NCBI RefSeq assembly: GCF_900327775.1
Contig: NZ_OUMZ01000007.1
Coordinates: 1,041,606-1,105,605 of the forward strand
Direction of reading: 5' to 3'
Source: Roseovarius sp. EL26
GTDB lineage: Bacteria; Pseudomonadota; Alphaproteobacteria; Rhodobacterales; Rhodobacteraceae
DNA length: 64,000 nucleotides
Under the pieces are notes generated by a model. That model was not told the DNA's origin and ran no database searches. It was given only the letters and a program-made list of their open reading frames with translations. Both the position numbers and the translations under genes were made by a program. This document shows positions 43,840-64,000 of this stretch, in pieces (position 1 is the first letter of the stretch; each line of letters starts with the position of its first letter).

Positions 43840-43848
43840 CGCATTTTT

Positions 43849-47205: not shown

Positions 47206-47230
47206 CTTTCTCTCCCATTTTGTCATTTAT

Positions 47231-47247
47231 TGAGACGTTTTGTTTCA
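47231..47247. promoter_or_regulatory. Inverted repeat TGAGAC-N5-GTTTCA between dctP and the GMC gene
   Basis: The element has 6-base arms with one mismatch around a 5-base spacer, in the 109-base divergent promoter region. It is similar in form to IclR-type operators, and the operon's own IclR gene makes this the most likely binder. Confidence 0.45.
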
Positions 47248-47314
47248 AAAAAGGCTAGCTTATTTCTTTCAACTTGCATAGAATTTTTTTCAAACACCGA
47301 TAAGGAGGGATGAA

Positions 47315-48910
47315 ATGGAGGCGGATTATGTCGTCGTGGGAGCAGGGTCATCTGGCTGTGTCATCGCCAATCGACTGAGTGCTGATCCCAAAAACAGGGT
47401 CATCCTATTGGAAGCAGGCGGGCGTGATATAAACCCCTGGATCCATATCCCCGTTGGGTATTTCAAAACTATGCACAATCCGTCTGTGGACTGGTGCTAC
47501 AAGACTGAGCCGGATCCTGGGCTGAATGGCCGTTCTCTAGATTGGCCACGTGGCAAAGTGCTGGGGGGCTCATCTTCGCTCAATGGATTGCTTTATGTAC
47601 GCGGACAGAAGCAAGATTATGACCGCTGGCGGCAGATGGGAAACAAGGGCTGGTCCTGGGAAGACGTGCTTCCCCTCTTTAAGCGCAGTGAAGATCAAGA
47701 GCGTGGCGCCGATGATCATCATGGAACTGGCGGGCCATTGTCCGTCTCAAATATGCGCATCCAACGCCCGATATGCGACGCTTGGGTTGCTGCGGCCCAA
47801 TCTGCGGGTTATCCATTCAATCCCGATTACAACGGTGAACAACAAGACGGTGTCGGATACTTTCAGCTGACAACCCGCAACGGGCGACGATGCAGTGCAG
47901 CTGTTGCTTTCCTCAAGCCCATTCGAAATCGCCCGAACTTACAGATCATCACTCATGCACTGGTTAAACGAGTCAACCTTGATGGCAAAAAAACCACGGG
48001 CCTGACCTTTATTGATCGTTCGGGACGTGAACAAACCATTACTGTGACGCGTGAAGTTATCTTATCTGCTGGGGCAATTAATTCGCCGCAAATTCTGATG
48101 CTCTCGGGGATCGGTGACGCCGGGCACCTCAAGGAAAATGGAATTGAACCGCTGCATGATCTTTCAGGTGTCGGGCGCGGGCTTCAGGATCACCTACAGG
48201 CAAGGCTTGTCTTTAAGTGCAATGAACCAACCTTGAATGACGAAGTTCGCAGCCTGTTCAACCAAGCCAAAATTGCATTGAAATACGCGATGTTCCGGGC
48301 CGGGCCGATGACGATGGCCGCAAGTTTGGCAACCGGGTTTCTGAAAACCCACCCTGATTTGGAGACCCCAGATATTCAGTTCCATGTTCAACCCTGGTCA
48401 GCGGACAGCCCCGGTGAGGGTGTCCATCCGTTCTCAGCTTTCACCATGTCAGTGTGCCAATTACGTCCGGAAAGCCGTGGCGAAATTGTTCTGAATGGTC
48501 CTGACCCGCGCAGCTATCCGAAAATTCACCCCAATTACCTAGCGACCGAAAGGGATTGCCGGACAATAGTTGATGGGGTGAATATCGCGCGCAACATTGC
48601 CCTTCATGCCCCGCTTGCTTCCAAAATATCCGAACAGTTCCGACCAACTGCTGATTTAAACATGGATGACTATGAAGGCACCCTGAATTGGGCGCGCGAC
48701 AACACGGCGTCGATCTATCATCCAACAGGTACGTGCCGCATGGGGCATGAACCTCATGCGGTTGTAGATGATGCGTTAAAGGTCCACGGGATCAAAGGCC
48801 TCCGCGTTGCCGATTGCTCAATCATGCCAGAAATTGTGTCGGGAAACACCAATGCCCCTGCGATTATGATCGGGGAAAAAGCAAGCGACCTTATTCTTTC
48901 GAATCCGTAA
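47315..48910 (+). CDS. GMC-family FAD-dependent oxidoreductase (choline/alcohol dehydrogenase type)
   Basis: The 531-residue flavoenzyme oxidises an alcohol to an aldehyde. Motifs in order: the FAD-binding VVVGAGSSGCVIANRLS (residues 6-22), DWPRGKVLGGSSSLNGLLYVRG, VILSAGAINSPQILMLSGIG, and the active-site IYHPTGTCRMG with catalytic His followed by SGNTNAPAIMIGEKASDLI with the conserved Asn. AAGGAGG at 47302-47308 sets the start. It is divergent from the TRAP operon and probably acts on the compound it imports. There is no betB-type aldehyde dehydrogenase next to it. Confidence 0.93.
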   Translation: MEADYVVVGAGSSGCVIANRLSADPKNRVILLEAGGRDINPWIHIPVGYFKTMHNPSVDWCYKTEPDPGLNGRSLDWPRGKVLGGSSSLNGLLYVRGQKQDYDRWRQMGNKGWSWEDVLPLFKRSEDQERGADDHHGTGGPLSVSNMRIQRPICDAWVAAAQSAGYPFNPDYNGEQQDGVGYFQLTTRNGRRCSAAVAFLKPIRNRPNLQIITHALVKRVNLDGKKTTGLTFIDRSGREQTITVTREVILSAGAINSPQILMLSGIGDAGHLKENGIEPLHDLSGVGRGLQDHLQARLVFKCNEPTLNDEVRSLFNQAKIALKYAMFRAGPMTMAASLATGFLKTHPDLETPDIQFHVQPWSADSPGEGVHPFSAFTMSVCQLRPESRGEIVLNGPDPRSYPKIHPNYLATERDCRTIVDGVNIARNIALHAPLASKISEQFRPTADLNMDDYEGTLNWARDNTASIYHPTGTCRMGHEPHAVVDDALKVHGIKGLRVADCSIMPEIVSGNTNAPAIMIGEKASDLILSNP

Positions 48911-49459: not shown

Positions 49460-50491
49460 ATGCCCATGAAAAAACGCGTCACACTGAAACAAGTCGCCGA
49501 GCACGCGCAAGTTTCGCCGATGACCGTTTCGAACTTTATGAACGGTCGGTTCAACCTGATGACGCCTGAGATGCGCCAGAAGGTCGAACAGTCTGTTAGG
49601 GAGCTGAATTACCGCCGGAACCATGGTGCGCACATGTTGCGGACGTCTAAACTGTGGTCGATCGGGGTCATCGTGGTGGATGCCTCTGACCATTACCTAT
49701 CGGATGGTTACACGACACAGATCATCGCCGGGATCAGCAACACGCTGAACGACGGCGGGTTTTCTGTGATCCTGCAAGGGGTAAAACCCGATGCCTTTGA
49801 TACATCGGCCATGCTGCGCAATGTGCAGACCGATGGATTATGCGTATTGTTGTCTGGGTCAGACGCACAGCGGGCGCATCAGTTCAAACTGATCCGCGAG
49901 TTTCAGCAACCAACCGTTCTGTTTCTTGAAGCGCCGGACGTGCCATCTGATCAAATCTGCTCGGTCATGCAAGATGACTATGTGGCAGCGCGAATATTGA
50001 CACAGCGCGTGTTAAAGCGGCGACCTCGCTCGGTCTTGATCATGACAGCCGGTGAAAACGAATGGGCCGCCGTTAATGCGCGTGTTGCTGGCATGCGGGA
50101 TGAAATTGCGCAATCGGGTGGTGTTGAACAGCTGGACATTGTTCCAAGTGGCGATGGCCGCCATCGCGACGTGATCACCGCCTTGAACACGCATGCCGCA
50201 CAACACGGGTATCCGGAAGCAATCATGTGTATCAACGATGAGATTGCGCTTGGGGCCCTGAAAGCCTTGCAACGAGCCAGCGTCGATGTGCCGGGGCAAA
50301 CCTGCGTCACCGGGTTCAATGCTTTTGGCCTCCACGAGATCACGGCGCAGACATTAACCACCATGCAGTCCCCTGCCTATGAAATGGGTTGTGTCGGGGC
50401 CCGCGAATTGCTGCAGGCTTTAGACACCGGCAGCTTTGATCAAACAACAATTACCCTGCCTGCGGAGTTGGTCGAAGGCGACACCACTTAA
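49460..50491 (+). CDS. LacI-family transcriptional regulator
   Basis: The 343-residue protein has an N-terminal helix-turn-helix with the LacI pattern VTLKQVAEHAQVSPMTVSNFMNGR and a hinge segment, then a periplasmic-binding-protein-like effector domain. The ligand is probably a small metabolite; LacI relatives usually bind sugars or nucleosides, and here the neighbours suggest an amine or betaine. It is upstream of and codirectional with the M29-AhpD-MttB operon, with a shared promoter motif. An ATG at 49466 is an alternative start. Confidence 0.9.
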   Translation: MPMKKRVTLKQVAEHAQVSPMTVSNFMNGRFNLMTPEMRQKVEQSVRELNYRRNHGAHMLRTSKLWSIGVIVVDASDHYLSDGYTTQIIAGISNTLNDGGFSVILQGVKPDAFDTSAMLRNVQTDGLCVLLSGSDAQRAHQFKLIREFQQPTVLFLEAPDVPSDQICSVMQDDYVAARILTQRVLKRRPRSVLIMTAGENEWAAVNARVAGMRDEIAQSGGVEQLDIVPSGDGRHRDVITALNTHAAQHGYPEAIMCINDEIALGALKALQRASVDVPGQTCVTGFNAFGLHEITAQTLTTMQSPAYEMGCVGARELLQALDTGSFDQTTITLPAELVEGDTT

Positions 50492-50523
50492 CAGTCAAAA
50501 TTTCTCTGGATCTTTTTGATTTT

Positions 50524-50545
50524 TTACATATTGTAACGTTAAAAT
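50524..50545. promoter_or_regulatory. Candidate LacI operator upstream of the M29-like gene
   Basis: TTACA-TAT-TGTAA at 50524-50536 is a perfect inverted repeat, overlapping TGTAACGTTAAAAT (50532-50545). The latter matches the element upstream of the LacI gene in 13 of 14 bases. It lies 36 bases before the start codon of the first operon gene, suitable for repression. Confidence 0.6.
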
Positions 50546-50580
50546 ATGATGATTTTGCAAAATACAGAGCGATTCTGATC

Positions 50581-51678
50581 ATGAATGTACACGCCAATAA
50601 ACACGCGCTGGCCACTGCAGGCGCCCGGAATTTACTGCGCAACTGCGTGCAGCTATCAAAAGGGCAAAGCCTGTTGTTGATTACGGAAGATCGGCAGATC
50701 GATTACTTTGACAATGCGGTTGCCGATATCATCGCTGAACAGGCCCGAGAAATAGGTGCAACTATTTTGACCCTTTCAACACCGCGTGCAGACGGTCCGG
50801 ATGATGTGCCCGAAGCCCTGAACGCCGCAATGACGAAGGTGGACCATACCGTGTTCCTCAATCGGATTGGGGATCAGATGCGGTTCAGATCTCTGCCCGG
50901 CGCGGGCAGCAAAACGATGGTCTATACGCTGGATGTCGACACATTGGCCTCGCGCGCAGCGACCTATGATCATGATTTCATGGTGCGCATGGTCGCCCTG
51001 TTCAATGGTACGTTAGACGGCAAGAAGAAATGGAACATCACCTGCCCGGCAGGCACGGATGTCAGCGGCGAGATCCCCGCCCCTAAACCGGTTTCGGCCT
51101 CAAGCGGTGGTTTTGCCGTGCGCCTGTTTCCGATGTCAGTACACAAACCCATTTCTGCGCACACGATGAATGGCAAGATCGTCCTGCAACGCTGGGTCAC
51201 CGGGACAAATACGCACGCTTATTCACCCGAGGTGCATTATTTGAACACGCCGATCACCATCCATGTGGCAAACGGACATAGCACGGACATTGAGGGCCAC
51301 GGGCCAGACGTCGAAGCCTTTCGCGCACATGCGCGAATGGTGGCGGAAAAGTTTGGATTGGATGAAACCCTGATCCATTCCTGGCATCACGGCCTCAACC
51401 CCGGCACCGGATATTTTGCAGCGGCCAAGGATGACCCAGTGCGGTGGAATGGGATGATCTTCGGCTCGCCCCGCCATCTGCATTTTCACACCTGCGGGGA
51501 CTATCCGCCGGGCGAGATCAACTGGCACATCATCGATCCGACCGTGCGATTTGATGACGAGGCGTTCCTCACCGATGGCGAGGTTACCTTCTTTCAAACC
51601 GCTGAGGCGCAGACTCTTTTACAGGAATTCGGCCTGACCTCTGATGACATGGCCACGTATCAAGATATTGGTTTGTGA
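50581..51678 (+). CDS. M29/NicX-like metalloenzyme
   Basis: The 365-residue protein matches the fold shared by M29 aminopeptidases and 2,5-dihydroxypyridine dioxygenase (NicX). The C-terminal part carries clustered candidate metal ligands: LIHSWHHGLNPGTGYF, HLHFHTCGDYPPGEINWHII with the following Asp. The Asn-Pro-Gly segment is family-typical. Members act either as metal-dependent peptidases or as ring-cleaving dioxygenases; which applies here is open. It is the first gene of an operon with AhpD-like and MttB-family genes, suggesting a catabolic reaction rather than peptide turnover. There is no strong Shine-Dalgarno sequence. Confidence 0.75.
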   Translation: MNVHANKHALATAGARNLLRNCVQLSKGQSLLLITEDRQIDYFDNAVADIIAEQAREIGATILTLSTPRADGPDDVPEALNAAMTKVDHTVFLNRIGDQMRFRSLPGAGSKTMVYTLDVDTLASRAATYDHDFMVRMVALFNGTLDGKKKWNITCPAGTDVSGEIPAPKPVSASSGGFAVRLFPMSVHKPISAHTMNGKIVLQRWVTGTNTHAYSPEVHYLNTPITIHVANGHSTDIEGHGPDVEAFRAHARMVAEKFGLDETLIHSWHHGLNPGTGYFAAAKDDPVRWNGMIFGSPRHLHFHTCGDYPPGEINWHIIDPTVRFDDEAFLTDGEVTFFQTAEAQTLLQEFGLTSDDMATYQDIGL

Positions 51679-51685
51679 GGTTCCC

Positions 51686-52306
51686 ATGACTCATTCCGCC
51701 AGCTGGATCGAAGACGACACGCCGGTCGATAGCTTTTTGACCGAGGAGATACGCCAAGAGGTATGCCGCGACGATGGCACATTGCATCGATTGTATCAGG
51801 CGTTATCCCCTTGGCCCTCGGCCATCTTGCCGGTGCATAAATTCTATCAGGCGATCCTGCACGCCCCCGATGCGCCGCTGGATCTGCACAATGCCGAGTT
51901 TGTTGCAACCTACGTGGCGATCCTGAACCACTGCGTCTATGCCCGCGCCCATCATGGTGAAAATTTCTGCGCGACGGCCCCTGACAGGCGCAAGGCGGAA
52001 CAGGTGCTGGCCGTTCTGGAGCAAGGTGATCTGCAATCCGACATCTTGTCGGGTCGGCAACGTGCCATCGCACTCTATACCCGCAAGCTGAGCAACACAC
52101 CTGAAGCGATGACGCGCGATAATATCGACGCATTGACCACCGCCGGTCTTAGCGCCGCGGAGATTGTGCACGTCAATCAAATTGCCGCCAGTTTTGCCTA
52201 CTGGACGCGGATGATCAACGGACTGGGCATCACCCTTGGGAATGAAACTATCGGTCTGGAAACCACAACACTGACTGACATCATGGAGGAGCAACCCAAT
52301 GGTTGA
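51686..52306 (+). CDS. AhpD/carboxymuconolactone-decarboxylase-like protein with CxxA
   Basis: The protein of about 206 residues resembles the peroxidase-related AhpD/CMD fold. The active-site helix reads EFVATYVAILNHCVYARAHHGENF, where the normal CxxC-x3-H motif is Cys83-Val-Tyr-Ala86 followed by His90. The resolving second cysteine is therefore missing. A peroxidase with disulphide chemistry is unlikely; a CMD-like decarboxylase or isomerase role is possible. GAGG before the ATG and a stop 8 bases upstream support translation coupling. It overlaps the MttB gene by 8 bases. Confidence 0.72.
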   Translation: MTHSASWIEDDTPVDSFLTEEIRQEVCRDDGTLHRLYQALSPWPSAILPVHKFYQAILHAPDAPLDLHNAEFVATYVAILNHCVYARAHHGENFCATAPDRRKAEQVLAVLEQGDLQSDILSGRQRAIALYTRKLSNTPEAMTRDNIDALTTAGLSAAEIVHVNQIAASFAYWTRMINGLGITLGNETIGLETTTLTDIMEEQPNG

Positions 52307-53762
52307 ACTCGCGCAAAAACCACGCCGCAGCGGTGGTCGTCGCAAAAGCTCGCGCTCGGACAAGGTCAACCGCAAGGCCCATATTGCCGACATCTCTCCG
52401 CTCAAGGATCAGGCTCTGCAACTGCGTGTGGCTGATACGGGGCAACTGGTACAGATCCACGAGGCCGTTTTGAAAATCCTGTCGCAGATCGGCGTGATTG
52501 TTGAACATGAGGGTGCCCGGACAAAATTGATCAATGATCATGGCTGCATGCTGGGCGATGATGGATATCTGCGGATGCCGCCTGAGCTGGTAGAACGCGC
52601 GTTGGAGACGGTGCCGCGCGAAATCAAGCTTTATGATTTGAACGGCAAGCTCAGGGTCGATACCTCCAGCCAGATCACATCCTATTGCCCGGGGCACAAC
52701 TGCGTGCGCATTCTGGACCGGACAACCGGGGAACTGCGCCCTTGTACTTTGGAGGACATTCGCGAAACCGCCAAGGTTTGCGAAGTACTGCCCAATCTCA
52801 GCATGTCTTGTTCCTTGGGCTATCCAAGCGACATTTCCGCCGAGGACGAGGCGGTTGAAACGGTGAAAGTACTGTTTGCGCATTGCTCAAAACCCGCAGC
52901 CGTTTTGGCACATGATGAGCATATTCAGAACCGCATTTTGGCGCATTTGGCCGAACTGGCCGGAGGCTACAACAACCTGGCGGACAAGCCCATTGCGCTG
53001 GAGCTGATGGGGCCAATCTCTCCCCTGCGCCTGCCCGAAGATTTCTGCGAGCGCGTGATCAATGCCGCACATCATCACATGCCAATTGTGTGTTACCCAG
53101 CCACCTTCCCCGGGATGTCCAGCCCGATCAGCGTGGCCGGGGCAATCGCACAATCCTCGGCCGAGGCCATCGCCGGCATCGTCATCCACCAACTCACGGA
53201 ACCGGGTGCCCCAATCATGAGTGGATCTGCTGTTTTGCCCATGGATATGCGGCAGGCGGATTTGGCTTACGGGTCGCCCGAATACATGCTGAACGGCTTG
53301 GGCGCGGCGGATTACTTCAAATCCATCGGTGTGCCGTCATGGATCGGGGCGGGATGCTCAGATTCACACGCCTTTGACGCCCAAGCCGCCGCCGAGGCCG
53401 GGGCGAACATGGCCATCGCCGCACTGGCGGGCACGCCCTTTGTGCACAACCTCGGCTTCCTGTCAGGTGGGCGAACCGGGTCGCTTGAGATGCTGGCACT
53501 TTGCGATGAACTGGTAGGCTGGACCAATCAGATGGCGGCAGGCTGCCCGGTCAACGCCGACACCATTGCCTATGACGTGGTGCAACGCGCCGCCCCCGAC
53601 AACAGCTATTTAACGGACCAGCATACGCAAGACAGATTCCTGAGCGAAAATTGGTATCCAACACTCTTTGAACGCTCCGATGCAGATGCTTGGCTCGAAA
53701 ACGGAAGCCGAGATTTGCGTACCCGGATCAGAACGAAACTTTCTGATGTGTTAGATAACTAG
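52299..53762 (+). CDS. MttB-superfamily (trimethylamine methyltransferase-like) protein 1
   Basis: The 487-residue protein belongs to the MttB/COG5598 family, which transfers a methyl group from quaternary amines to a corrinoid protein. There is no in-frame amber codon, so it is a non-pyrrolysine member, like the glycine betaine, proline betaine or carnitine enzymes. A basic, disordered N terminus precedes the TIM-barrel domain, which begins around LVQIHEAVLKILSQIGVIVEHEGA. It shares segments such as ISVAGAIAQSSAEAIAGIVIHQLTEPGAP with the second MttB homologue at 58775-60280. No corrinoid-binding protein is found in the window. Confidence 0.88.
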   Translation: MVELAQKPRRSGGRRKSSRSDKVNRKAHIADISPLKDQALQLRVADTGQLVQIHEAVLKILSQIGVIVEHEGARTKLINDHGCMLGDDGYLRMPPELVERALETVPREIKLYDLNGKLRVDTSSQITSYCPGHNCVRILDRTTGELRPCTLEDIRETAKVCEVLPNLSMSCSLGYPSDISAEDEAVETVKVLFAHCSKPAAVLAHDEHIQNRILAHLAELAGGYNNLADKPIALELMGPISPLRLPEDFCERVINAAHHHMPIVCYPATFPGMSSPISVAGAIAQSSAEAIAGIVIHQLTEPGAPIMSGSAVLPMDMRQADLAYGSPEYMLNGLGAADYFKSIGVPSWIGAGCSDSHAFDAQAAAEAGANMAIAALAGTPFVHNLGFLSGGRTGSLEMLALCDELVGWTNQMAAGCPVNADTIAYDVVQRAAPDNSYLTDQHTQDRFLSENWYPTLFERSDADAWLENGSRDLRTRIRTKLSDVLDN

Positions 53763-53855
53763 TTCGGAGTTTTACGCTACAATAGTCTTAGAGTTCCTTA
53801 CCCTTCCGCTTTAGATTTCTCAGTACGATGCAGTTAATTGAAGGTGTATGAACTT

Positions 53856-54186
53856 TCATAAGTGGCGTAAACAAGCACTTGGGGCGGCATTAAAGCGTGA
53901 CTGTTCCAATACAGCCAATTCTATCCCTACAGAATTGTTGGTGAAAAACGTCATGCCATCGGAAAGTTGAGCTTGAATAACCTCCATCACTTCCGGGTGG
54001 TTGTGACCGACGAGCATTGGTCCAAAACCAATCAGGTAGTCGATGTATTCTTTCCCATCTTCATCCCAGACACGCGCCCCGCGGCCTTTTTTTGATTACA
54101 ATGCTTGGATCGTAATTCCCAAACCCTCCCGCAGGTAGAACTGACCGCGATTGAGCACACCACATCTCCTGAACTGTTTCGGCCAT
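53856..54186 (-). pseudogene. Broken class III aminotransferase (N-terminal fragment)
   Basis: On the minus strand, an ATG at 54186 preceded by GGAGG begins MAETVQEMWCAQSRSVLPAG and continues GFGNYDPSIVIKK. A run of seven A then shifts the frame, after which the sequence reads ARVWDEDGKEYIDYLIGFGP, MLVGHNHPEVMEVIQAQL and MTFFTNNSVGIELA, typical of glutamate-1-semialdehyde aminotransferase-like enzymes. With six A residues the frame would be continuous. The match ends near 53913, and an unrelated tail reaches a stop at 53856. It is therefore frameshifted and truncated, lacking the PLP-binding lysine. Confidence 0.85.
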
Positions 54187-54252
54187 TGCCTGTCGCCTCC
54201 TGCCCTGCAGGTGAATTTTATCTTGACCATGGATGAGGAGGAGTTAATTAAA

Positions 54253-55209
54253 ATGGTAGTTCTCGTGAAATTAATTCAGGCAAAAGAAATGCCAATCGGC
54301 CCCCTTCTTGAATTGCGCCACCTCAAGATGATCCGTGCCATAGCGGAGCACGGGCGCGTCACCGATGCGGCCGAGGCTTTGGGCGTAACACCTTCGGCCT
54401 TATCGCATCGCATCAAAGAGGCCGAGCGGCGACTGGATGTCGTTTTGTTTACGCGCATGCACAAGCGGCTGCGCATGACGCCCGCCGCAGACTACCTCGC
54501 CGAAACTGCCGATCGCATTCTGTCAGAAATGGACCGTGCTGAGCAGGATGTTCGACGTATGGATCGCGGTGTTGAACACGTGGTGCGCATCGCTGTTGAA
54601 GCTTACAGCTCTTATCACTGGCTGCCCAGCTTCACCAATTATCTGCGGGCGCATCTTCCTGGGGTGGATTTGCAAGTCATGGCGGGTGCCGGGCGAGAAC
54701 CCGTTCAGGCACTGACCAACCGACATGTAGATCTGATCGTTGTCTCAGGTGAAACGGTGCCGCTTGGCACAAATCATATCCCGCTATTTCGAGACCCGTT
54801 GGTCTTTATAATGCCACCCAATCATCGCCTTGCAGGAAAACCCTTTATTGAAGGCTCCGATATCGAAGGTGAAGATTTCATCACCTACACAAAGACACCT
54901 GAACCGGATCGGGAATTTGCCCGCCTGTTCCGCCCGTCGGAAAGCTATCCTCGCTGGACGGCTACTGTCGAACTACCTGAAGCCATCGTCGAGCTGGTAG
55001 CCGCCGGCCAAGGCACAAGCGTTCTGGCGGATTGGGCTGTTCGCCCCGCAATTGAAGCAGGGCGTATCATTGGAGCTCGCGTCGGGCAGGACGGTATAGA
55101 GATCCCTTGGCAAGCTCTGATGCGTTCTGAAGATAGCAATACCGGACCAATCACAGACGTGGGCAAAGCATTGGCGACATGGTCCAGCATTAGCGGCGGT
55201 TTTAGCTAA
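54253..55209 (+). CDS. LysR-family transcriptional regulator
   Basis: The protein of about 318 residues has an N-terminal winged helix (LLELRHLKMIRAIAEHGRVTDAAEALGVTPSALSHRIKEAERRLDVVLF) and a LysR co-inducer domain. The ATG at 54253 follows GAGGAG; an ATG at 54289 is also possible. Extension upstream to 54151 crosses the pseudogene and is unlikely. It is convergent with the FAD-GcvT fusion gene, with overlapping stop codons. It may control one or both catabolic operons around it. Confidence 0.88.
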   Translation: MVVLVKLIQAKEMPIGPLLELRHLKMIRAIAEHGRVTDAAEALGVTPSALSHRIKEAERRLDVVLFTRMHKRLRMTPAADYLAETADRILSEMDRAEQDVRRMDRGVEHVVRIAVEAYSSYHWLPSFTNYLRAHLPGVDLQVMAGAGREPVQALTNRHVDLIVVSGETVPLGTNHIPLFRDPLVFIMPPNHRLAGKPFIEGSDIEGEDFITYTKTPEPDREFARLFRPSESYPRWTATVELPEAIVELVAAGQGTSVLADWAVRPAIEAGRIIGARVGQDGIEIPWQALMRSEDSNTGPITDVGKALATWSSISGGFS

Positions 55210-57623
55210 CCCTTTAACCTGCTGTTCTCAGGGTCATAGACGTGATGTTCATGGCGCACGGCATTGCGCTCAACCCCAAAAGCCTGAACTGAGCATTCTT
55301 CACCCATGCTCAGAGAACCATTTTTAACATACCCAAGGGCCAGCAGTTTACCCGTACGGTATCCCATAGAAACCGACGTAAGATAGCCGATGACAACCCC
55401 ATCCTTTAGTATTGGATCTGAGGGCAAAGGCTCAGGGCCGAGATCAGTGATTTCCATCCCGATAAAACTCCACTCAACGTCTGTCTTTGATTGCCGGGCG
55501 ACGGCCTCTCGTCCTGTAAATGGGCCTTTCGCCATATTTGCAAACTTCGATAGCCCCGCATCAAACAGTGTGTATTCAGTCCCGAAGTCTGTTCCCCACC
55601 CATGATAGCCTTTTTCAACGCGCATCGCATTGAGCGCGTAGGAGCCAAAATTGCAGATGTTATGCGTTAAACCGGCCTGCCAAATGGCCTGAAAAAGCTG
55701 GGTCAGATGATCTGAGGAGACGTGCAATTCCCACCCCAGCTCGCCGACATAACTCACCCGCAAAGCGGTGACCGGAATGCCGGCAATCTCGATCTCTGCC
55801 ACGCTCATCCACGGCGCAGTCTGTGCGTCTAAGTTTGACGATGTCAGAGACTGTAAAAGCTCACGTGATTTTGGTCCCATGACCAGCAAAGCCCCGTCAT
55901 GTATATAGCCTTTGGTCAGCGTCACATCTGCTCTTTCGGCCTGAGCAGAAATCCAATCAAAATCCCGCTCAACCGCCAGCGTTGGTCCGCAGAGCAAAAA
56001 GCGATCTTCTGCCAAACGCGCAATTGTCGCTTCGGACCAAATGCGCCCCTCTGGCGTCAGCATGTATGACAGGCGAACGCGACCAACTGGGGGCAATTTT
56101 CCACAAACGACAGTGTCTAAAATTGCCGCTGCGTCTGGTCCTTCAAGCAGGTATTTTGTAAAACCGCCATGGTCCATGATGCCAACAGCGTCACGTACAG
56201 TTTCACATTCAACACGCACGGCATCCTGCCATGGCTCATGCCCAAAGCTCAGTTCGCCTGCGTCTGCTGCGGCGTCCTGCTTGAACCAAAACGCCCGCTC
56301 CCAGCCCCCGACCTGCCCCATCACAGCACCCTGATCGCACAGATGGTCATAGAGCGGAGTTTGATTGACCGGCCGTCCTGAATCCATAGTCCGGTGAGGG
56401 TAAGGGATCGCATATTGTAAATCATAGTGCTGCGACGCACGTTTCGCAGCATATTCTTGACTGGCCCAAGGCCCAAAGCGGCGTGGATCCCAAGCTGAAA
56501 GATCCCATTCTGTTTCTCCAACCGTCAACCATTCGGCCATTGCCTTCCCAATTGCGGCAGAATGGGTGATGCCGATTTGAACGCCAGTCGCGTGATAGAA
56601 ATTTTTCACACCGCCCGCAGGCCCAACCAATGGCAGCGCGTCGGGCGAATAAGGGATCGGTCCATTCACAAATCGCTGTGCGCCGGCCTCGGCCAAAATC
56701 GGCACATGGGCTGCTGCAGCTTCAAAAACCTCCATCATGCCGTCAATGTCATCGGCAAAAAGCTGGTGATCAAAATCAGCAGGTACGCCCTCTTGCCATA
56801 CCGGGCGGCCGTCATGTGCATACGATCCCAATAACAATGCATTGCGTTCACGGCGCAGATAATACCGAATATCCGGATCACGGATTAGCGGAAAGACGGC
56901 ACTATCTTCATCCAGTTGCTGTAATGCGCTGGTCACCATGTATTGATGTTCAAGCGTGACCACAGGCAAATGTAATCCTGCCAGTGCGGCGATCATCCCA
57001 CCGCTTGATCCGGCAGCATTAACAACCGTGCCAGCTACAAATGTACCCTGAGATGTCTCGACGTCCCATTCCCCTGACGCACGCTGAGCCAACCCGGTCA
57101 CTGGAGTGAAGCGTTTTACCTTCGCACCATTGGCACGCGCATGTTTCGCCAACGCTTGTGTCAACTGGCTGGGGTCAATGTCACCTTCATATGGGTCAAG
57201 GATACCACCCAAAACCGTTTCATCGGCCCGCCAATAGGGGTGTCTTTCTTCAATCTCGGCTGGATTGAGCATCTCCAGATCAAACCCGGCAGAGCGGGAC
57301 ACGCCGCACAAATGCTGAAACAACTGCATTCGCTCGGGTGTATGTGCCGGCCATATGGCCGAGGTATGCCGATAGGTGATTGGAGCCTCAGGGTCCTTGG
57401 CAAGCTCTTTATAGAGCTGCCATGCGTAATTACCCGCCCGCATGCCAAGCCATGAATTAGCATAAGTCGGGATGTTACCCGCCGCATGCCAGGTCGATCC
57501 GGCTGTCAGCTCATTCTTCTCAAGTAAAACGGTGTCGGTAATACCGGCCTCAGCCAGATGATAAAGGATTGCAGCACCGACAGCGCCGCCACCAATGACC
57601 GCCACCTGAACATAAGTGCTCAT
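55206..57623 (-). CDS. Dimethylglycine/sarcosine dehydrogenase-like FAD-GcvT fusion
   Basis: The 805-residue protein has an N-terminal DAO flavoprotein domain (QVAVIGGGAVGAAILYHLAE; covalent-FAD type motif AGSTWHAAG), an FAO_M linker domain, then a GcvT-type folate-binding domain (from about residue 430) with the GcvT C-terminal barrel. This is the DMGDH/sarcosine dehydrogenase architecture: oxidative demethylation of an N-methyl amine with transfer of the C1 unit to tetrahydrofolate. Substrate is not known. It is last in the mttB-SRPBCC-isomerase operon; its start overlaps the upstream stop by one base. Confidence 0.92.
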   Translation of the reverse strand: MSTYVQVAVIGGGAVGAAILYHLAEAGITDTVLLEKNELTAGSTWHAAGNIPTYANSWLGMRAGNYAWQLYKELAKDPEAPITYRHTSAIWPAHTPERMQLFQHLCGVSRSAGFDLEMLNPAEIEERHPYWRADETVLGGILDPYEGDIDPSQLTQALAKHARANGAKVKRFTPVTGLAQRASGEWDVETSQGTFVAGTVVNAAGSSGGMIAALAGLHLPVVTLEHQYMVTSALQQLDEDSAVFPLIRDPDIRYYLRRERNALLLGSYAHDGRPVWQEGVPADFDHQLFADDIDGMMEVFEAAAAHVPILAEAGAQRFVNGPIPYSPDALPLVGPAGGVKNFYHATGVQIGITHSAAIGKAMAEWLTVGETEWDLSAWDPRRFGPWASQEYAAKRASQHYDLQYAIPYPHRTMDSGRPVNQTPLYDHLCDQGAVMGQVGGWERAFWFKQDAAADAGELSFGHEPWQDAVRVECETVRDAVGIMDHGGFTKYLLEGPDAAAILDTVVCGKLPPVGRVRLSYMLTPEGRIWSEATIARLAEDRFLLCGPTLAVERDFDWISAQAERADVTLTKGYIHDGALLVMGPKSRELLQSLTSSNLDAQTAPWMSVAEIEIAGIPVTALRVSYVGELGWELHVSSDHLTQLFQAIWQAGLTHNICNFGSYALNAMRVEKGYHGWGTDFGTEYTLFDAGLSKFANMAKGPFTGREAVARQSKTDVEWSFIGMEITDLGPEPLPSDPILKDGVVIGYLTSVSMGYRTGKLLALGYVKNGSLSMGEECSVQAFGVERNAVRHEHHVYDPENSRLKG

Positions 57624-58327
57624 TAATGCGCCTCGAGTAGCTGACCGTATCCGAGGATTGGGTCCGTGATCCCGATACCGCGTAACGTTTGCCAATAAAC
57701 TGCAGCGTTGCAGGCGACGATAGGCTTGCCATGTGTGGCTTCCAAATCCGCAATCATAGCGACAACTGGTAGAGCGGTCCCAACCTGCAAGATGACGTCA
57801 CACTCGGTCGCTGCAACCTCGGCAAAGACATGTCGAATATCGTCAGCAGGTGTCTCGCAAATAGCGGGTAATGACGGGGCATTGGTGCCCTTTATGCTCA
57901 CCACGTTGAACCCCGCCGCTTCGGTGTTAGCTTTTACGACAGCATCAACATCAGCATTGAATGGCGTCACGATGCCAACCCGCGTCGCCCCCAAGGTACG
58001 CAGGGCTTCGTAATCCGCAAAGGATGCACAATAGATCGGGACCTCGACTTGGGCAGATATTTCATCACAGCGTTTTTTCAGCTTGTCGGGCCCGCCGGGA
58101 CCCGCATCTGTGGTCAACCCCACGGCGATGGCCGCAGGTTTACAATCCATCAACTTGGCCGCCTCATCAGGCAGATCATCCGAAATCACATCACCGCCCA
58201 GCCGAAACCGTTGCATCTGGTTGGTCACACCTGCGGGGCGCAAAAGCTCCAGCTCTGGCTGCACGACCGTGTTCATGGCGGGCGTCATGACACCAATCAC
58301 AGCGCGCGGGGCTAAGGTATCAGCCAT
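57623..58327 (-). CDS. Asp/Glu racemase-superfamily protein (maleate isomerase-like)
   Basis: The 234-residue protein fits the Asp/Glu racemase, arylmalonate decarboxylase and maleate cis-trans isomerase group. Two candidate catalytic cysteines occur in VPIYCASFADY and KPIVACNAAVYW. The starting segment IGVMTPAMNTVVQPELE is like maleate isomerases. The reaction could be isomerisation or racemisation of a dicarboxylic acid. GGAGA precedes the ATG. The start overlaps the SRPBCC stop by 8 bases and its stop overlaps the FAD-GcvT start. Confidence 0.82.
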   Translation of the reverse strand: MADTLAPRAVIGVMTPAMNTVVQPELELLRPAGVTNQMQRFRLGGDVISDDLPDEAAKLMDCKPAAIAVGLTTDAGPGGPDKLKKRCDEISAQVEVPIYCASFADYEALRTLGATRVGIVTPFNADVDAVVKANTEAAGFNVVSIKGTNAPSLPAICETPADDIRHVFAEVAATECDVILQVGTALPVVAMIADLEATHGKPIVACNAAVYWQTLRGIGITDPILGYGQLLEAH

Positions 58328-58763
58328 TCTCTGTCTCCTTCATAAACCTGTTCAGGCCGGCCATGCCGCCGATGTAAATGGTATCACCAACCACCTGTTC
58401 CATTTCAGCAGCGTTATCCGGTGCACACTCAAACCAGCTTTCCCAGATACTTAGCGTCTGCTGACCGTGGGTGATCGGAATGAAACGATGGATCGAAACA
58501 TATCCGGTGACCGGCAGTGGGCTTTCCAGAATGTCATAGGTGTAGAAGGTTTCGACATCAGAATGCGTCAGCAAAGTTTCGCGAAAAATGGTGCCATCTG
58601 CAATTTTCAGACTGCGGACCACGCCGACCTGTGTTGCGGCGCCATTTTCCAGTGTTGCGCCTTCTACTCCTGGATTCCAGGCGGCAACACCATCAAAGGC
58701 CCGGACTGCAGCCCAGGTTTTTTCAATGGGTGCGTCAATGATCATGCTGCGGAATACGTGCAT
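58320..58763 (-). CDS. SRPBCC (START/polyketide cyclase-like) protein
   Basis: The 147-residue protein has the helix-grip fold pattern of the SRPBCC superfamily: MHVFRSMIIDAPIEKTWAAVRAFDGVAAWNPGVEGATLENG at the N terminus, central strands, and a C-terminal helix (DNAAEMEQVVGDTIYIGGMAGLNRF). Members bind hydrophobic or aromatic small molecules or act as cyclases. AGGAGG lies just before the ATG. It is 11 bases after the MttB gene and is probably an accessory or enzymatic member of this operon. Confidence 0.82.
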   Translation of the reverse strand: MHVFRSMIIDAPIEKTWAAVRAFDGVAAWNPGVEGATLENGAATQVGVVRSLKIADGTIFRETLLTHSDVETFYTYDILESPLPVTGYVSIHRFIPITHGQQTLSIWESWFECAPDNAAEMEQVVGDTIYIGGMAGLNRFMKETENG

Positions 58764-58774
58764 AGGACCTCCTG

Positions 58775-60280
58775 TTATTGCTCAAGTCGGATGGGATAAG
58801 TGGCGCGAATTTTCGCCTCTGTTTCAACGCTCAGATGTGTGGGTCCCGGGCTTGCAAGAATATCAGCCACGCGTGCCTGTGCCCTGTCCCAGATAGATTG
58901 CTCGCCCGCATCAACCCAGTCATTCACACTCTGACGATCGGCAAGCGCCGGATACAGATAATCTGTTTTCATGCGCTTAAGGGTCTCTGCTTCGCCTAAG
59001 TAATGTCCGTCCTGCGTCACCACGCGTTCAATTGATTCAAGATTCAGTGTATCGTCAGATACTTCGATCCCCCGTATCGACCGCAGAATGGCGCCGCACA
59101 TGTCATCGTCAATCGCCATTGCCTCAAGGCTTGCCACCATAATTGATCCCAACATGCCCACCGACAGATTGATCATATCAGCGCCCGCGTGACCCGCCAT
59201 CGCAACGGTGTAGCCCTTTTCATATCCCGATTGCGCATCTGCGATCTTAGAATCGGTCATGCCTGCCGACACGGTCGATGGCAGGCCGAGATGCGCCAGC
59301 AATTGGGCTGCTGCCGCATTGGCAATAGCGCCTTCGCCACCGCCCCCGCTCATCGCGCCTGTCCGCAAATCTGAGATGAAAGGCATAAGGGCATAGATAC
59401 ACGACGCGCCAGGTTTAATGGCATCAACCACGACTAGCCCAGCCAGGCATTCGGCCAAACCTTGTGCAAGTGCCCCAGCCAATGTCACTGGACTGGTTGC
59501 CCCCGCTTGACCGGCTGAAACAATCTGCGGGATCATGCCTGCATCGATGACCCGCTCTAATATCTCTATACCTTCGGCGGCATATGTCAGCGGCGGCACC
59601 ACGTGCGCAATGACCGCCATACAAAACGGCCGCTCACGGAATGCGCCCGTACCGCCAAGGGCCATGTCAAACATATCAATGATTGGGCGAACATGATCCG
59701 CCTCGCAAAAACTGATGCCGATGGGTTTTGATGTGGCCTTCATACAGGCAAAGGCAGAGTTAATGTCCAACTCAAACGGATCTGTAAGATCTCTGGCAAC
59801 AACCGGACGCACGCCATAGTGAATATGGGATGACGCATCGAGAACACGCATCAATTCATAAAGATCGCTCAGGTGGCTATCCCGGTACGTTCCGGTTGTT
59901 GCATCCAGCATCTGCACTGCCGCCCCGCCCGTTCCGATATGAACCCGTCCACCGCCAATCATCAGATCGCGGTCTGGTGTGAAGCCGGGAAGCGAAATGT
60001 TTTTAGGTGCGCGGTTGCAGGCATACCGGATCATCGCAGGTGGAAAGCATATGCGACCATCCTCTCGGTGCCGTGCCCCGAGTGTGAGTAAGCGATTGGC
60101 CATCGGTCGTGGTAAGCCCGACATCCCGATGTGTGACAACATTTCAAAAGCATGGTCCACGATCATCGACGCATCTGTCGGCGATAATGGCTTTAAATAG
60201 CCACCGGTCGGTATCTCGCAATCGGGTACCGCACCCGTCCCGCTTTCCCCTGTCTGTCGCCGTGTGGCCCGCCGAACCAT
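58775..60280 (-). CDS. MttB-superfamily (trimethylamine methyltransferase-like) protein 2
   Basis: The 501-residue protein is a second non-pyrrolysine MttB/COG5598 homologue, sharing GATSPVTLAGALAQGLAECLAG with the first in the same position as its ISVAGAIAQSS segment. The TIM barrel runs through the centre and the conserved YPALADRQSVNDWVDAG is near the end. The start at 60280 is supported by AAAGGAA 7 bases upstream; an earlier frame to 60364 has no family sequence. It heads an operon with SRPBCC, isomerase-like and FAD-GcvT genes. Its methyl acceptor protein is not in the window. Confidence 0.88.
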   Translation of the reverse strand: MVRRATRRQTGESGTGAVPDCEIPTGGYLKPLSPTDASMIVDHAFEMLSHIGMSGLPRPMANRLLTLGARHREDGRICFPPAMIRYACNRAPKNISLPGFTPDRDLMIGGGRVHIGTGGAAVQMLDATTGTYRDSHLSDLYELMRVLDASSHIHYGVRPVVARDLTDPFELDINSAFACMKATSKPIGISFCEADHVRPIIDMFDMALGGTGAFRERPFCMAVIAHVVPPLTYAAEGIEILERVIDAGMIPQIVSAGQAGATSPVTLAGALAQGLAECLAGLVVVDAIKPGASCIYALMPFISDLRTGAMSGGGGEGAIANAAAAQLLAHLGLPSTVSAGMTDSKIADAQSGYEKGYTVAMAGHAGADMINLSVGMLGSIMVASLEAMAIDDDMCGAILRSIRGIEVSDDTLNLESIERVVTQDGHYLGEAETLKRMKTDYLYPALADRQSVNDWVDAGEQSIWDRAQARVADILASPGPTHLSVETEAKIRATYPIRLEQ

Positions 60281-60514
60281 GCCAATTCCTTTTTGTGGTG
60301 CACCCACTAAACCCCAAAGAATTGATGGATCAAATTCAATTACTCGCAAAAAATGATGAATCATATTCAGGCAAGTTTACAAAGCGCCCTCAAATTGGTC
60401 GGCAAATTACCTATTAGACCCTTGCCTGCAGGCGTTTAACGACGATTGGTTGCCCAAGCATAGGATGATCAATATCGTTCATTCATTGGATGACTTACCC
60501 TCGGCTGCATGGCA

Positions 60515-60533
60515 GGCAATTTACATCATTGCC
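60515..60533. promoter_or_regulatory. Inverted repeat GGCAAT-N7-ATTGCC between mttB2 and pxpA
   Basis: Perfect 6-base arms flank a 7-base spacer, 45 bases upstream of pxpA, within the roughly 300-base divergent region shared with the mttB2 operon. A LysR-family regulator is present on either side of this locus and could bind here. Confidence 0.4.
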
Positions 60534-60578
60534 GATCCCCGTATGCTGAAACGAACAGTGCGAAATGTGTAGGCTGCA

Positions 60579-61349
60579 ATGCTAAAAATAGATCTCAACT
60601 CTGACCTCGGCGAGGGTTTTGGCTCTTGGGCGATGGGTGATGACGCAACAATGCTCACGCTTGTAACCTCGGCTAATATTGCCTGCGGTGCACATGCCGG
60701 TGACCCAGAGACGATGTTCCAGACACTCTTGCTTGCCAAAGAAAACGGCGTCTCAGTCGGTGCGCATCCCGGGTACAATGATCGGATTGGATTTGGCCGT
60801 CGGGTGATCCCTATGCCCCCTGACGAGGTTGGGCGCATGTGTGCGGCCCAGATCGGTGCATTGATGGCGCTTGCAGCGCAGGCTGGTGTGTCAGTGGATT
60901 ACGTAAAACCCCATGGCGCCTTAGGAAATCTTGCGGCGCGTGACCGATCAGTTGCGGATGCCATTGTTGCGGCTGTCCAAAAGATAAGCCCCGATTTGGC
61001 AATGCTCGCGATTTCTGGCACTCAAAGTGAACTGGCAGCACGCGATTTAGGCACGCCAGTATATTCCGAGATTTTTGCAGATCGAGGGTATCTTTCCACC
61101 GGGCAACTTGTCCCCCGTGGGCAAGAGGGCGCGATGATTGATGACCCCGCGCAAGCCAGTGAACGACTTATTGCCTATCTCGAAACCGACATGATGCCTG
61201 TCGTCGACGGTGACCCCATTCGCCTAGCAGCACAATCCGTCTGTGTGCACGGTGATAGCCCCGGCGCCGTCGCCATGACAAAGGAAATACGTAAACGCCT
61301 GTTGGCACATGGGGTGGAAATCAGGCAATTTTCCAAACCTACGTCATGA
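60579..61349 (+). CDS. pxpA: 5-oxoprolinase subunit A (LamB/YcsF family)
   Basis: The 256-residue protein matches the LamB/YcsF family: MLKIDLNSDLGEGFGSWAMGDD, ACGAHAGDPETM, VGAHPGYNDRIGFGRR and VDYVKPHGALGN. With PxpB and PxpC it forms ATP-dependent 5-oxoprolinase, which opens pyroglutamate to glutamate. The three genes overlap in the order A-B-C as in other bacteria. GTAGG precedes the ATG. Within this cluster the complex might act on a lactam product of the catabolic route, which is inference. Confidence 0.93.
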   Translation: MLKIDLNSDLGEGFGSWAMGDDATMLTLVTSANIACGAHAGDPETMFQTLLLAKENGVSVGAHPGYNDRIGFGRRVIPMPPDEVGRMCAAQIGALMALAAQAGVSVDYVKPHGALGNLAARDRSVADAIVAAVQKISPDLAMLAISGTQSELAARDLGTPVYSEIFADRGYLSTGQLVPRGQEGAMIDDPAQASERLIAYLETDMMPVVDGDPIRLAAQSVCVHGDSPGAVAMTKEIRKRLLAHGVEIRQFSKPTS

Positions 61350-62041
61350 AGATGAACGCGCAATTTAAAGCCGTCGCAGACCATGCGCTTCTTGTTAGCT
61401 TTGCAACGGAGATAAGCGATGATGTGCATAATATCATCGTCGCATTGGACAAAGCTATTGTAGATGCGCCGCCGACGGGTGTGATTGAAACCATACCGGC
61501 TTTGGTGAACATCTTGGTGGATTTTGATCCGCTGATGACAGATCATATTACGATTACATCTGATATTCGCAACATGCTGCGGCACCTCAAACCAGACGGT
61601 TACACAGGCATCACTCATAATATTCCGGTCTGTTATGAGCATCCTTTTAATCCTGATCTATCGGCTGTGGCGCAACAGACCGGACTGTCAGAAGACGCCG
61701 TGATTAACGCACACCTTGCAGGGAATTACCGTGCGTTGATGTATGGATTTGCACCCGGCTTTGCTTATCTTGCGGGTGTTCCCGAAACCATTCAGGTGCC
61801 ACGGAAACCAGCGGCAATACGTGATATCCCCGGATGCAGCGTCATCATCGCTGGCCCTCAATGTATTGTGACGACGATAATGATGCCCACGGGCTGGTCC
61901 GTTATCGGACGGTCGACCACGTCGGTTTTAACGGGCAATGCTGATAGGCCTTTCCTGTTTAATATTGGCGATAAGGTAATATTCGAACGTATCACTCAGG
62001 CAGAATTCGAGCGATTAGCGAAAGGGAACGCAAATGACTGA
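61346..62041 (+). CDS. pxpB: 5-oxoprolinase subunit B (KipI-like)
   Basis: The 231-residue protein has the allophanate hydrolase subunit 1-type fold with the signature YGFAPGFAYLAGVPE and the segment PRKPAAIRDIPGCSVIIAGPQCIVTTIMMPTGWSVIGR. It pairs with PxpC. The start overlaps the pxpA stop by 4 bases (ATGA) and its end overlaps pxpC by 8 bases. Confidence 0.92.
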   Translation: MKMNAQFKAVADHALLVSFATEISDDVHNIIVALDKAIVDAPPTGVIETIPALVNILVDFDPLMTDHITITSDIRNMLRHLKPDGYTGITHNIPVCYEHPFNPDLSAVAQQTGLSEDAVINAHLAGNYRALMYGFAPGFAYLAGVPETIQVPRKPAAIRDIPGCSVIIAGPQCIVTTIMMPTGWSVIGRSTTSVLTGNADRPFLFNIGDKVIFERITQAEFERLAKGNAND

Positions 62042-63035
62042 CGCTGAGATCTATGTCAGTTTTGCAGGCCCTCATGTCACTTTTCAGGATGCTGGGCGCC
62101 GTGGGCATATGCGCTTTGGTGTTTCTGCTTCAGGGCCAATGGACCGTTTGTCTTTTGCAGCGGCGCATGCCGCGCTCGGCAATTCACCTGGACAAACAGC
62201 GATAGAAATCTCGCTAGCCGGTGTGACGCTTCAGTGCCGTGAAGGGGAAGTCACGCTTGCCATCATGGGTGAAGGGTTTGTTTTCGACCACAACGGACAA
62301 AAAGGCACGTCCGGGACAGTGCTGACCTTTCGCAAAGGAGAGAAGCTTAGCATCCGTCCCGGTGCAACGGGAAGTTGGGCCTATCTTGCCTTTGCAGGTT
62401 TGCTGCAAAGTGAAAGATGGCTCGGCCACAGCGCCACCCATGCCAGCTCTGGCTTTGGCGGCGGTGCCATACAATCGGGTCAGGTCTTAACTGTCCATGA
62501 TACTAGCATTCACAATGACCGCGAAGGCGCAATATCTCAGTATGATCACTCGTTGAACGCGCCAATTCGTGTGGTGATGGGACCGCAAGATCAGCATTTT
62601 GCCAAAGAAGCCCTTTCTATTTTTACATCCAATCCATTTGCCGTTACAGGCGCCTATGACCGTATGGGTATGCGTCTAAAAGGCCCATTGCTTGCCCTTG
62701 ACCGTGCCCTTTCTATTCCGTCAGAGCCAATTGTGCGCGGATCGGTTCAGGTGTCCGGTGATGGGATAGCGACGGTGCTGCTGTCCGATCATCAGACAAC
62801 CGGCGGCTATCCAAAGATCGCAACTGTCATTTCATGCGATATAGACAGATTGGTTCAGGCCCGCAGCGGCCAACAGATCAGATTTACTGCAGTTTCCCCG
62901 GAACAAGCGATCTCCGCGGTTCGTGACGATTCGTTATCACGTTCAAAATACTTGGATAAGATCGGGGAGCCACTCGGAACCCTTGAGCAACGGTTGATGC
63001 GGAACAACCTTATTCATGGCGAGTTCTTCCAGTAA
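62034..63035 (+). CDS. pxpC: 5-oxoprolinase subunit C (biotin-dependent carboxyltransferase-like)
   Basis: The 333-residue protein matches the PxpC/KipA family: VTFQDAGRRGHMRFGVSASGPMDRLSF near the N terminus, IRVVMGPQDQHF in the middle, and DHQTTGGYPKIATVISCDIDRL. AAAGGGAA precedes the ATG inside the pxpB gene. It completes the three-subunit 5-oxoprolinase. Confidence 0.92.
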   Translation: MTDAEIYVSFAGPHVTFQDAGRRGHMRFGVSASGPMDRLSFAAAHAALGNSPGQTAIEISLAGVTLQCREGEVTLAIMGEGFVFDHNGQKGTSGTVLTFRKGEKLSIRPGATGSWAYLAFAGLLQSERWLGHSATHASSGFGGGAIQSGQVLTVHDTSIHNDREGAISQYDHSLNAPIRVVMGPQDQHFAKEALSIFTSNPFAVTGAYDRMGMRLKGPLLALDRALSIPSEPIVRGSVQVSGDGIATVLLSDHQTTGGYPKIATVISCDIDRLVQARSGQQIRFTAVSPEQAISAVRDDSLSRSKYLDKIGEPLGTLEQRLMRNNLIHGEFFQ

Positions 63036-63460: not shown

Positions 63461-64000
63461 CTAAAGCTGGCACCATAATTCACGCGCAGTTTCATCATCC
63501 ATTTTTGGATTTCGGAACGCTGAGATTGTTAACTCCGCATTCCATTCGCTGTTACCGACAGGTACCACTGCCCCCTCAGCGAGTTCGGGGGCAATCGCCG
63601 TTTCTGGCATCCAAGCAAACCCACTTCCAGACAGAAGCCTTCGTTTGATTGCTTCTACTAGGCCATCGACGTAGATCGTACTGGTGTTCGTAGGTTTTCG
63701 GTCCACTGTGTTCTCAACAACCATGCCCAGAAATGACGACCGCTCATAGGCGAGATATGGGATGGGTGGGCCATTCCGATTACTCAAATTCCATCCACCT
63801 GTCTGTGCCGGCCCTGTGGCGGCGACCGGGATGAGTCGGTCAACCACAAGATCTTTGCGCTCAAAGGCGGTTTCATCGATCATTGGAGAGACCGCGTGAT
63901 GATAGTAGCAAAGCATGATATCGACAGCACCCTCAATCAACAATTCGCAGCAAGTACTCAGAGAATCAGAGACAACTCGCGTACGTAAATCCGGTAGCAG
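63461..64000 (-). CDS. LysR-family regulator, C-terminal part (runs off the window)
   Basis: An open frame on the minus strand enters from the window edge and stops at 63461, giving about 179 residues. The sequence fits a LysR effector-binding domain: IEGAVDIMLCYYH, PYLAYERSSFLG, and the usual GSGFAWMPETAIAPELAEGAVVPV segment near the C terminus. The DNA-binding domain must lie beyond the window. Confidence 0.85.
   Translation of the reverse strand: MLPDLRTRVVSDSLSTCCELLIEGAVDIMLCYYHHAVSPMIDETAFERKDLVVDRLIPVAATGPAQTGGWNLSNRNGPPIPYLAYERSSFLGMVVENTVDRKPTNTSTIYVDGLVEAIKRRLLSGSGFAWMPETAIAPELAEGAVVPVGNSEWNAELTISAFRNPKMDDETARELWCQL

Follow-up and report, generated by a model that had tools for sequence, protein, structure and literature searches.

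Does the DNA between positions 49460 and 63035 of the window encode one pathway for a single methylated compound, or several units that happen to lie side by side? The window is a stretch of 64,000 nucleotides from Roseovarius sp. EL26 (positions 1041606-1105605 of contig C7, within a genome of 3.9 Mb). The locus contains two operons, here called modules A and B, each with a methyltransferase of the MttB superfamily, as well as pxpABC-like genes that are divergent from module A. The best reading of modules A and B is that they represent variants of a known process, the demethylation of betaines linked to B12 and folate, and that they have unusual partners. That they are two separately conserved catabolic modules for methylated quaternary-ammonium (betaine-type) compounds is given a probability of about 0.6. 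The sequence data establish which genes are there and how they are conserved, the joint occurrence within the genus, a corrinoid protein in the genome and a predicted fold like that of NicX; the reactions with their order and substrates are inferred from these.

Gene calls were based on open reading frames (ORFs) together with Pfam and NCBIfam profile matches, and likely start sites were set by ortholog comparison. The four genes of module A are located on the reverse strand. They encode MttB2, a non-pyrrolysine MttB-superfamily methyltransferase (58775-60280, likely start at 60280 in an ORF extending to 60364), an SRPBCC protein (Polyketide_cyc2; 58320-58763), an Amdase/EutA-like protein of the Asp/Glu racemase-maleate isomerase superfamily without the canonical cysteine pair (57623-58327, referred to as Amdase-like), and a DMGDH-type fusion of a flavin adenine dinucleotide (FAD) enzyme with GcvT (55206-57623, likely start at 57623 in an ORF extending to 57695). 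With these probable starts, adjacent genes share 1 or 8 bases, or leave a gap of 11 bases. A LysR regulator gene, recognised by profile match, is assigned to the same module (54151-55209, forward strand, likely start at 54289).

Scanning of genome contigs with the Amdase-like protein revealed 43 loci, or 42 after a duplicate contig (L160) was dropped. The flanks covered around these loci span 10 kb or reach to the contig end. All four genes, the SRPBCC gene included, are conserved together in 37 of the 42 loci; the other five are cut off within the set by the end of the contig. The genes lie on a single strand in 30 of these 37 loci. As the remaining seven hold them as two divergent pairs (MttB2 with FAD/GcvT, SRPBCC with Amdase-like), the linkage survives rearrangement. 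In 22 of 42 loci, a relative of the LysR regulator (>45% identity) is encoded no further than 5.5 kb from the Amdase-like gene.

According to the record titles, module A is present within the Alphaproteobacteria in Ruegeria, Roseovarius, Tateyamaria, Tropicibacter, Falsiruegeria, Pelagibius and several alphaproteobacterial metagenome-assembled genomes (MAGs), and beyond them in gammaproteobacterial MAGs and the Olavius algarvensis Gamma 3 symbiont. Rare cases are one deltaproteobacterial MAG fragment, one Acidimicrobiales MAG and one Acidimicrobiia MAG; one record flagged as unverified Flavobacteriia has a contig that agrees in name and length with the dropped Roseobacter duplicate. Among 292 sampled genomes of the order, 11 encode an Amdase-like protein at E ≤ 1e-30, five of them (EL26 included) at a minimum of 73% identity, and the homologues with 32-40% identity (6 genomes) are located in other neighbourhoods. 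These distant homologues and the plasmid-borne ones, of which one locus was read, were considered as a clue to the function and discarded, as their differing neighbourhoods were of no help. On this plasmid, from Salipiger abyssi, the Amdase-like gene follows a TRAP transporter and lies directly upstream of a gene annotated as a glutamate cyclase domain protein.

The FAD/GcvT fusion contains the Pfam domains DAO, FAO_M, GCV_T and GCV_T_C in the order expected of DMGDH/sarcosine dehydrogenase fusions, and matches DMGDH in the PDB (5l46, E 1.3e-155). The first-pass annotation had taken an MttB and a DMGDH-type fusion as a sign of stepwise N-demethylation, which is supported by the families and by the retention of the pair in 37 of 42 loci. 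Its maleate-isomerase reading of the Amdase-like protein is not supported: sequence alignments revealed that both cysteine positions of the maleate isomerases and racemases, which we take to be the catalytic ones, are replaced. A different cysteine, Cys206, is present in all 18 operon-linked sequences and in none of three others. Under the NCBIfam cut-offs, the protein reaches 60.9 of 318 bits for EutA and 43.3 of 225 bits for arylmalonate decarboxylase. A nicotinate-type pathway, in which the Amdase-like protein would act as maleate isomerase together with the NicX-like protein of module B, was rejected because the cysteines are absent and module A mostly occurs without module B outside the genus.

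Further enzymes accompany module A in other genomes: of the 42 loci, 16 have a class III aminotransferase and 12 a 3-hydroxyisobutyrate-dehydrogenase-like (HIBADH-like) gene. From two aminotransferase types, a single representative each was compared; the first is placed near gamma-aminobutyric acid (GABA)/omega-amino acid transaminases, and the second is close to D-phenylglycine and glutamate-semialdehyde enzymes. The one HIBADH-like dehydrogenase tested exceeds the NCBIfam HIBADH cut-off (334.7 vs 291.6 bits). Such neighbours would be expected if demethylation were followed by release of a primary amine.

Both MttBs clearly exceed the PF06253 cut-off of 25 bits, with 257.6 (MttB1, module B) and 336.6 bits (MttB2), and remain below the 525 bits of the pyrrolysine-type equivalog TIGR02369 (298.5 and 306.6 bits). 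The EL26 genome contains 13 MttB matches, none with internal stops; having no in-frame stop, neither of the two therefore carries an amber-coded pyrrolysine. The pyrrolysine of 7xcl, printed as X, served as the alignment reference for this position, which is occupied by Cys in MttB1 and by Leu in MtgB; in MttB2 a Met is aligned opposite the MtgB Leu. Among 120 listed relatives of MttB1, the motif pattern was found in 103, all of which read G[AG]GC[ST]DSH. In the MttB2 cluster it was found in 31 of 41 members, with Met in 30 of the 31. The PDB chains nearest to MttB2 are 9yce, a glycine betaine methyltransferase, and 2qne.

The first-pass annotation had noted no corrinoid protein partner in the window. 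None is found among the genes of the cluster, and the search it proposed elsewhere in the genome identified a single B12-binding_2 protein with a DIHDIG motif. This protein (domains B12-binding_2 and B12-binding) is encoded at 1.23 Mb of C7, 131 kb beyond the window end. A DUF1638 gene follows it, and a gene for an MtgE-like homocysteine S-methyltransferase (S-methyl_trans) lies 4 kb upstream. An MtgD-like gene (Pterin_bind) is located at 0.8 Mb of C7, near another MttB and FAD/GcvT, and beside it a MetF2-like protein, named by position and resemblance as it has no Pfam match. Judged by domain families, corrinoid protein, MtgD-type protein and reactivation-type gene (DUF1638) are thus all present in the genome. 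According to Mausz et al. (PMC12478193), whose set of genes this resembles, MtgC and MtgD are essential for glycine betaine demethylation in Ruegeria pomeroyi, and up to seven pfam06253 genes are reported there.

Based on these families, MttB2 would move the first N-methyl group of a quaternary amine onto the MtgC-type corrinoid protein of the genome, from which the MtgD-type protein would pass it to tetrahydrofolate. The FAD/GcvT fusion would then remove a further N-methyl group as methylene-tetrahydrofolate, and the carbon skeleton would be processed by the SRPBCC and Amdase-like proteins. In other lineages the freed amine could be handed on to the class III aminotransferase and the 3-hydroxyisobutyrate-dehydrogenase-like enzyme. 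Conceivable substrates include beta-alanine betaine, zooanemonin and hydroxyproline betaine, none of which is favoured by the evidence. For the cyclic or aromatic substrate class suggested by the first-pass annotation, there is indirect support for module B and none for module A.

Module B is encoded on the forward strand. It consists of a LacI-family regulator (49460-50491; Pfam LacI, Peripla_BP), a NicX-like putative ring-cleaving dioxygenase of the M29 superfamily (50581-51678), an AhpD/carboxymuconolactone-decarboxylase-like protein (51644-52306, likely start at 51686) and MttB1, a non-pyrrolysine MttB-superfamily methyltransferase (52299-53762). The AhpD-like protein is close to two cut-offs, with 23.2 vs 23 bits for CMD and 78.6 vs 81.8 bits for TIGR01926. 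In the first-pass annotation the LysR gene of module A was missing; the positions and strands it gave for the LacI, AhpD-like, MttB1, FAD/GcvT, Amdase-like, SRPBCC, MttB2 and PxpA-, PxpB- and PxpC-like genes were borne out by ORFs and families.

The NicX-like protein has no match in the Pfam or NCBIfam profile search, and was assigned using an AlphaFold model (mean predicted local distance difference test score 88.7) and a fold search. The best Foldseek matches in the PDB are 7cn3 and 7cup, the 2,5-dihydroxypyridine dioxygenase NicX of Pseudomonas putida (E 1.3e-16 to 1.6e-14, template modelling score 0.61-0.66, 15-16% identity), followed by M29 aminopeptidases. A PDB sequence search with a three-sequence profile of the NicX-like protein gave nothing relevant, and NicX was recovered by the fold search alone. 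A 91% identical relative carries the UniRef name 2,5-dihydroxypyridine 5,6-dioxygenase, and many close relatives have a precomputed PF26233 assignment. Across 17 sequences, His269, His301, His303 and Asp319 do not vary; these residues are candidates for the counterparts of the NicX iron ligands. Since the predicted fold is most similar to that of 2,5-dihydroxypyridine dioxygenase, ring opening by module B is plausible: MttB1 would demethylate, and the NicX-like dioxygenase with its AhpD-like partner would open the (hetero)ring. Of the ring opening proposed in the first-pass annotation, the presence of a ring-opening-type enzyme is thereby retained for module B; ring opening by PxpABC is no more than a possibility.

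In the order sample, NicX-like proteins (E ≤ 1e-20) were found in 39 of 292 genomes, and an AhpD-like gene is located within 20 kb of the NicX-like gene in 33 of 40 places, in 14 of them within 2 kb. Twelve plasmid records matched, of which five loci were read. Each of the five contains a Rieske-type (aromatic ring-hydroxylating) oxygenase and an AhpD-like ('peroxidase-related') gene; sarcosine oxidase genes are present in four and a trimethylamine methyltransferase family (pfam06253-type) gene in one. A second locus of the EL26 genome (contig C2, 100000-119999), which parallels modules A and B, carries in a row sarcosine-oxidase-alpha-like, DAO, NicX-like, AhpD-like, GntR, peptide-type binding protein, transporter-like (ABC transporter genes by appearance), FAD/GcvT and MttB genes. 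From the plasmid neighbourhoods and this locus it follows that NicX-like and AhpD-like genes often accompany varied N-demethylating enzymes. In three other loci (L068, L081, L082) histidine-utilisation-type genes were seen near NicX-like genes by clustering, with family searches covering L068 alone. Some NicX-like clusters may, on this hint, handle imidazole compounds.

The occurrence of the modules was analyzed in 84 genomes of the genus, with module A scored by SRPBCC and module B by MttB1 at 72% identity or more. Module A was found in 6 and module B in 7 genomes; all six genomes with A also hold B, which was found in one of the 78 others (Fisher 1.7e-8, ignoring kinship and leaving out a 47% relative of MttB1 in G355). 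The two modules thus co-occur within the genus, as the first-pass annotation had asked to be checked. The order LacI-NicX-like-AhpD-like-MttB1 is kept in all seven genomes with such an MttB1 ortholog, at differing genomic places. Of the more distant MttB1 relatives that were read, several have an AhpD-like gene, a LacI-like gene or both beside them, or else a peptide-type binding protein; the rest show no such neighbours. In G314, MttB1 is 93% identical to that of EL26 and ThrS 77%, which suggests, at the sequence level, a horizontal transfer of module B into this lineage; G314 forms a long branch on the ThrS tree. MttB1 matches are rare in the wider samples, with 2 of 292 genomes of the order at E ≤ 1e-90 (at most five candidates per genome scored) and 2 of 385 genomes of the class at E ≤ 1e-100 (at most four scored).

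The first-pass annotation had combined both operons and PxpABC into a single route for the demethylation and ring opening of one betaine, either cyclic or aromatic. In addition to the co-occurrence in the genus and the NicX fold, this is favoured by a single-gene tree of ThrS from 79 of the 84 genomes (two without a match and three with short partial matches were left out). With five changes per trait, an average of 4.8 of 5 independent pairs show B going with A and none show the opposite, but a sign test with five pairs cannot fall below p = 0.0625. Against it, module B adjoins module A in the EL26 genome only; the distance is 41 kb in G130, about 480 kb in G299 and about 530 kb in G362, and the modules are on separate contigs in G303 and G325. 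No module B gene was found in the fetched flanks of the 42 related module A loci, and the idea of one conserved two-operon cluster was therefore rejected in favour of separate conservation of A and B. MttB1 relatives (E ≤ 1e-60) are encoded in 13 of the 42 genomes with module A, the genus accounting for five of these, while all nine named Ruegeria lack one, and the MttB1 relative of G355 occurs without module A. The Ruegeria strain 2012CJ41-6 does have relatives of MttB1 (70%) and of the NicX-like protein (62%). A single pathway is accordingly considered doubtful.

The same question arises for the pxpABC-like genes, which are transcribed divergently from MttB2 on the forward strand and encode PxpA-like (60579-61349, LamB_YcsF), PxpB-like (61346-62041) and PxpC-like (62034-63035) proteins. 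PxpA passes its curated cut-off (subfamily NF003814, 341 vs 226 bits), and PxpB (TIGR00370, 131.5 vs 145.55 bits) and PxpC (TIGR00724, 212.7 vs 230.2 bits; NF045499, 167.6 vs 500 bits) fall below theirs. These scores and the presence of pxpA within 5.5 kb in just 3 of 42 module A loci, some of the remainder being cut by contig ends, argue against PxpABC as a general part of the cluster; the low count of loci with pxpA also speaks against the single pathway. An unrelated 5-oxoproline-scavenging operon that adjoins module A by chance has odds a little short of even. It is favoured by the EL26 PxpA being the sole PxpA match of the genome (E ≤ 1e-20), by an orthologous pxp cluster in G176, where the 20 kb covered contain a TRAP-type gene but nothing MttB-like, and by Roseovarius aestuarii (G325), in which the pxp genes are convergent to module A. 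On the other side, the divergent arrangement is kept in three genomes (EL26, EL129 (G299) and a Roseovarius MAG (G362)) with 62-74% protein identity, and the pxpBCA genes of R. aestuarii belong to a different lineage (28-40%), so that two pxp lineages adjoin module A, which also speaks for the single pathway. PxpA was found in 25 of 40 sampled genus genomes, at 72% identity or more only in EL26, G299 and G176. A functional link between PxpABC and module A is possible; in EL26, PxpABC might open a five-membered lactam.

A further alternative concerns the substrates themselves: the MttB homologues might use methylated compounds other than quaternary amines, or no longer work with a corrinoid. 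The large sequence distance, the replacement of pyrrolysine by Cys or Met and the single B12-binding_2 protein for 13 MttBs would agree with this. However, N-methyl groups are indicated by the DMGDH-type FAD/GcvT partner and by the sarcosine oxidase genes near NicX-like clusters, and the sharing of one corrinoid protein by several MttBs is already published for Eubacterium limosum (PMC8604678). We regard this alternative as very unlikely. The reading as two betaine-type modules, in turn, has to account for several unfavourable points. The SRPBCC and Amdase-like proteins have no obvious role in a simple betaine demethylation, and the aminotransferase and HIBADH-like genes are absent from the cluster in the window. 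MttB1 is the weakest of the 13 MttB matches of the genome, and neither MttB has at the pyrrolysine position the residue seen in members of solved structure. Neither operon, nor a substrate or activity, is described in the literature searched, a collection with subscription papers largely outside it and hence no proof of novelty.

A more specific version for module B is an aerobic route with corrinoid-linked N-demethylation of a heteroaromatic betaine by MttB1 and NicX-like ring opening, in which MttB would take the place of the demethylases, of Rieske or flavin type, that accompany NicX-like genes elsewhere and module A would feed the same pathway in the genus. This version is rather improbable.

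Transport genes flank the locus on both sides. A ProX/ProV/ProW-like choline/betaine ABC transporter is encoded at 1106193-1109836 of C7, about 0.6 kb beyond the window end, followed by an alpha/beta hydrolase gene and preceded by a LysR gene, the 3' part of which is located at 63461-64000 of the window. This transporter counts in favour of the betaine-type reading. In G299, comparison with the genes of the window and of the stretch past its end (L009) revealed none of the kind next to pxpABC. Beside module B (43057-48910), TRAP-type transporter genes, a divergent choline-dehydrogenase-like GMC oxidoreductase (604.2 bits vs a cut-off of 605) and, by eye, an IclR-like regulator were observed; a gene run at 35466-39931 resembles polyhydroxyalkanoate metabolism by eye. 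A scan for sigma-70 promoters and terminators was uninformative, as the number of sites was below that of shuffled sequences.

In marine bacteria, many MttB homologues without assigned substrate may share one corrinoid protein, and the four-gene module A offers a clearly delimited starting point from which substrates could be assigned to this family. Its hosts include a gutless-worm symbiont and isolates with names pointing to marine animals and algae. Module A is perhaps a B12-dependent nitrogen-recycling route and may matter for the recycling of nitrogen compounds by marine bacteria.

Four known systems can be compared with the modules. The homarine catabolism pathway of Ferrer-Gonzalez et al. 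(2026), cited in PMC13390433, is reported to let environmental bacteria break down an N-methyl pyridinium compound, which would be its common ground with the modules. The nicotinate/2,5-dihydroxypyridine pathway, to which NicD and NicF belong, resembles module B in the predicted fold of the NicX-like protein. It differs in the low identity to NicX given above and in the Amdase-like protein, which lacks the maleate isomerase cysteines; by families, no NicD- or NicF-like gene is present among the genes of the two operons. E. limosum MtpB, MtcB and MtyB, as described in PMC8604678, are likewise non-pyrrolysine MttBs, each acting on one quaternary amine and sharing a corrinoid protein, a likeness by description and not by sequence; unlike the bacteria considered here, E. 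limosum is an anaerobic acetogen. With MtgBCD of R. pomeroyi, as far as described in PMC12478193, the locus shares a pfam06253 methyltransferase, one MtgC-type corrinoid protein and MtgD-, MtgE- and DUF1638-type genes outside the window, by families rather than by sequence orthology. In contrast to that system, MttB1 and MttB2 are distant from MtgB and are encoded in operons with SRPBCC, Amdase-like, FAD/GcvT, NicX-like and AhpD-like genes.

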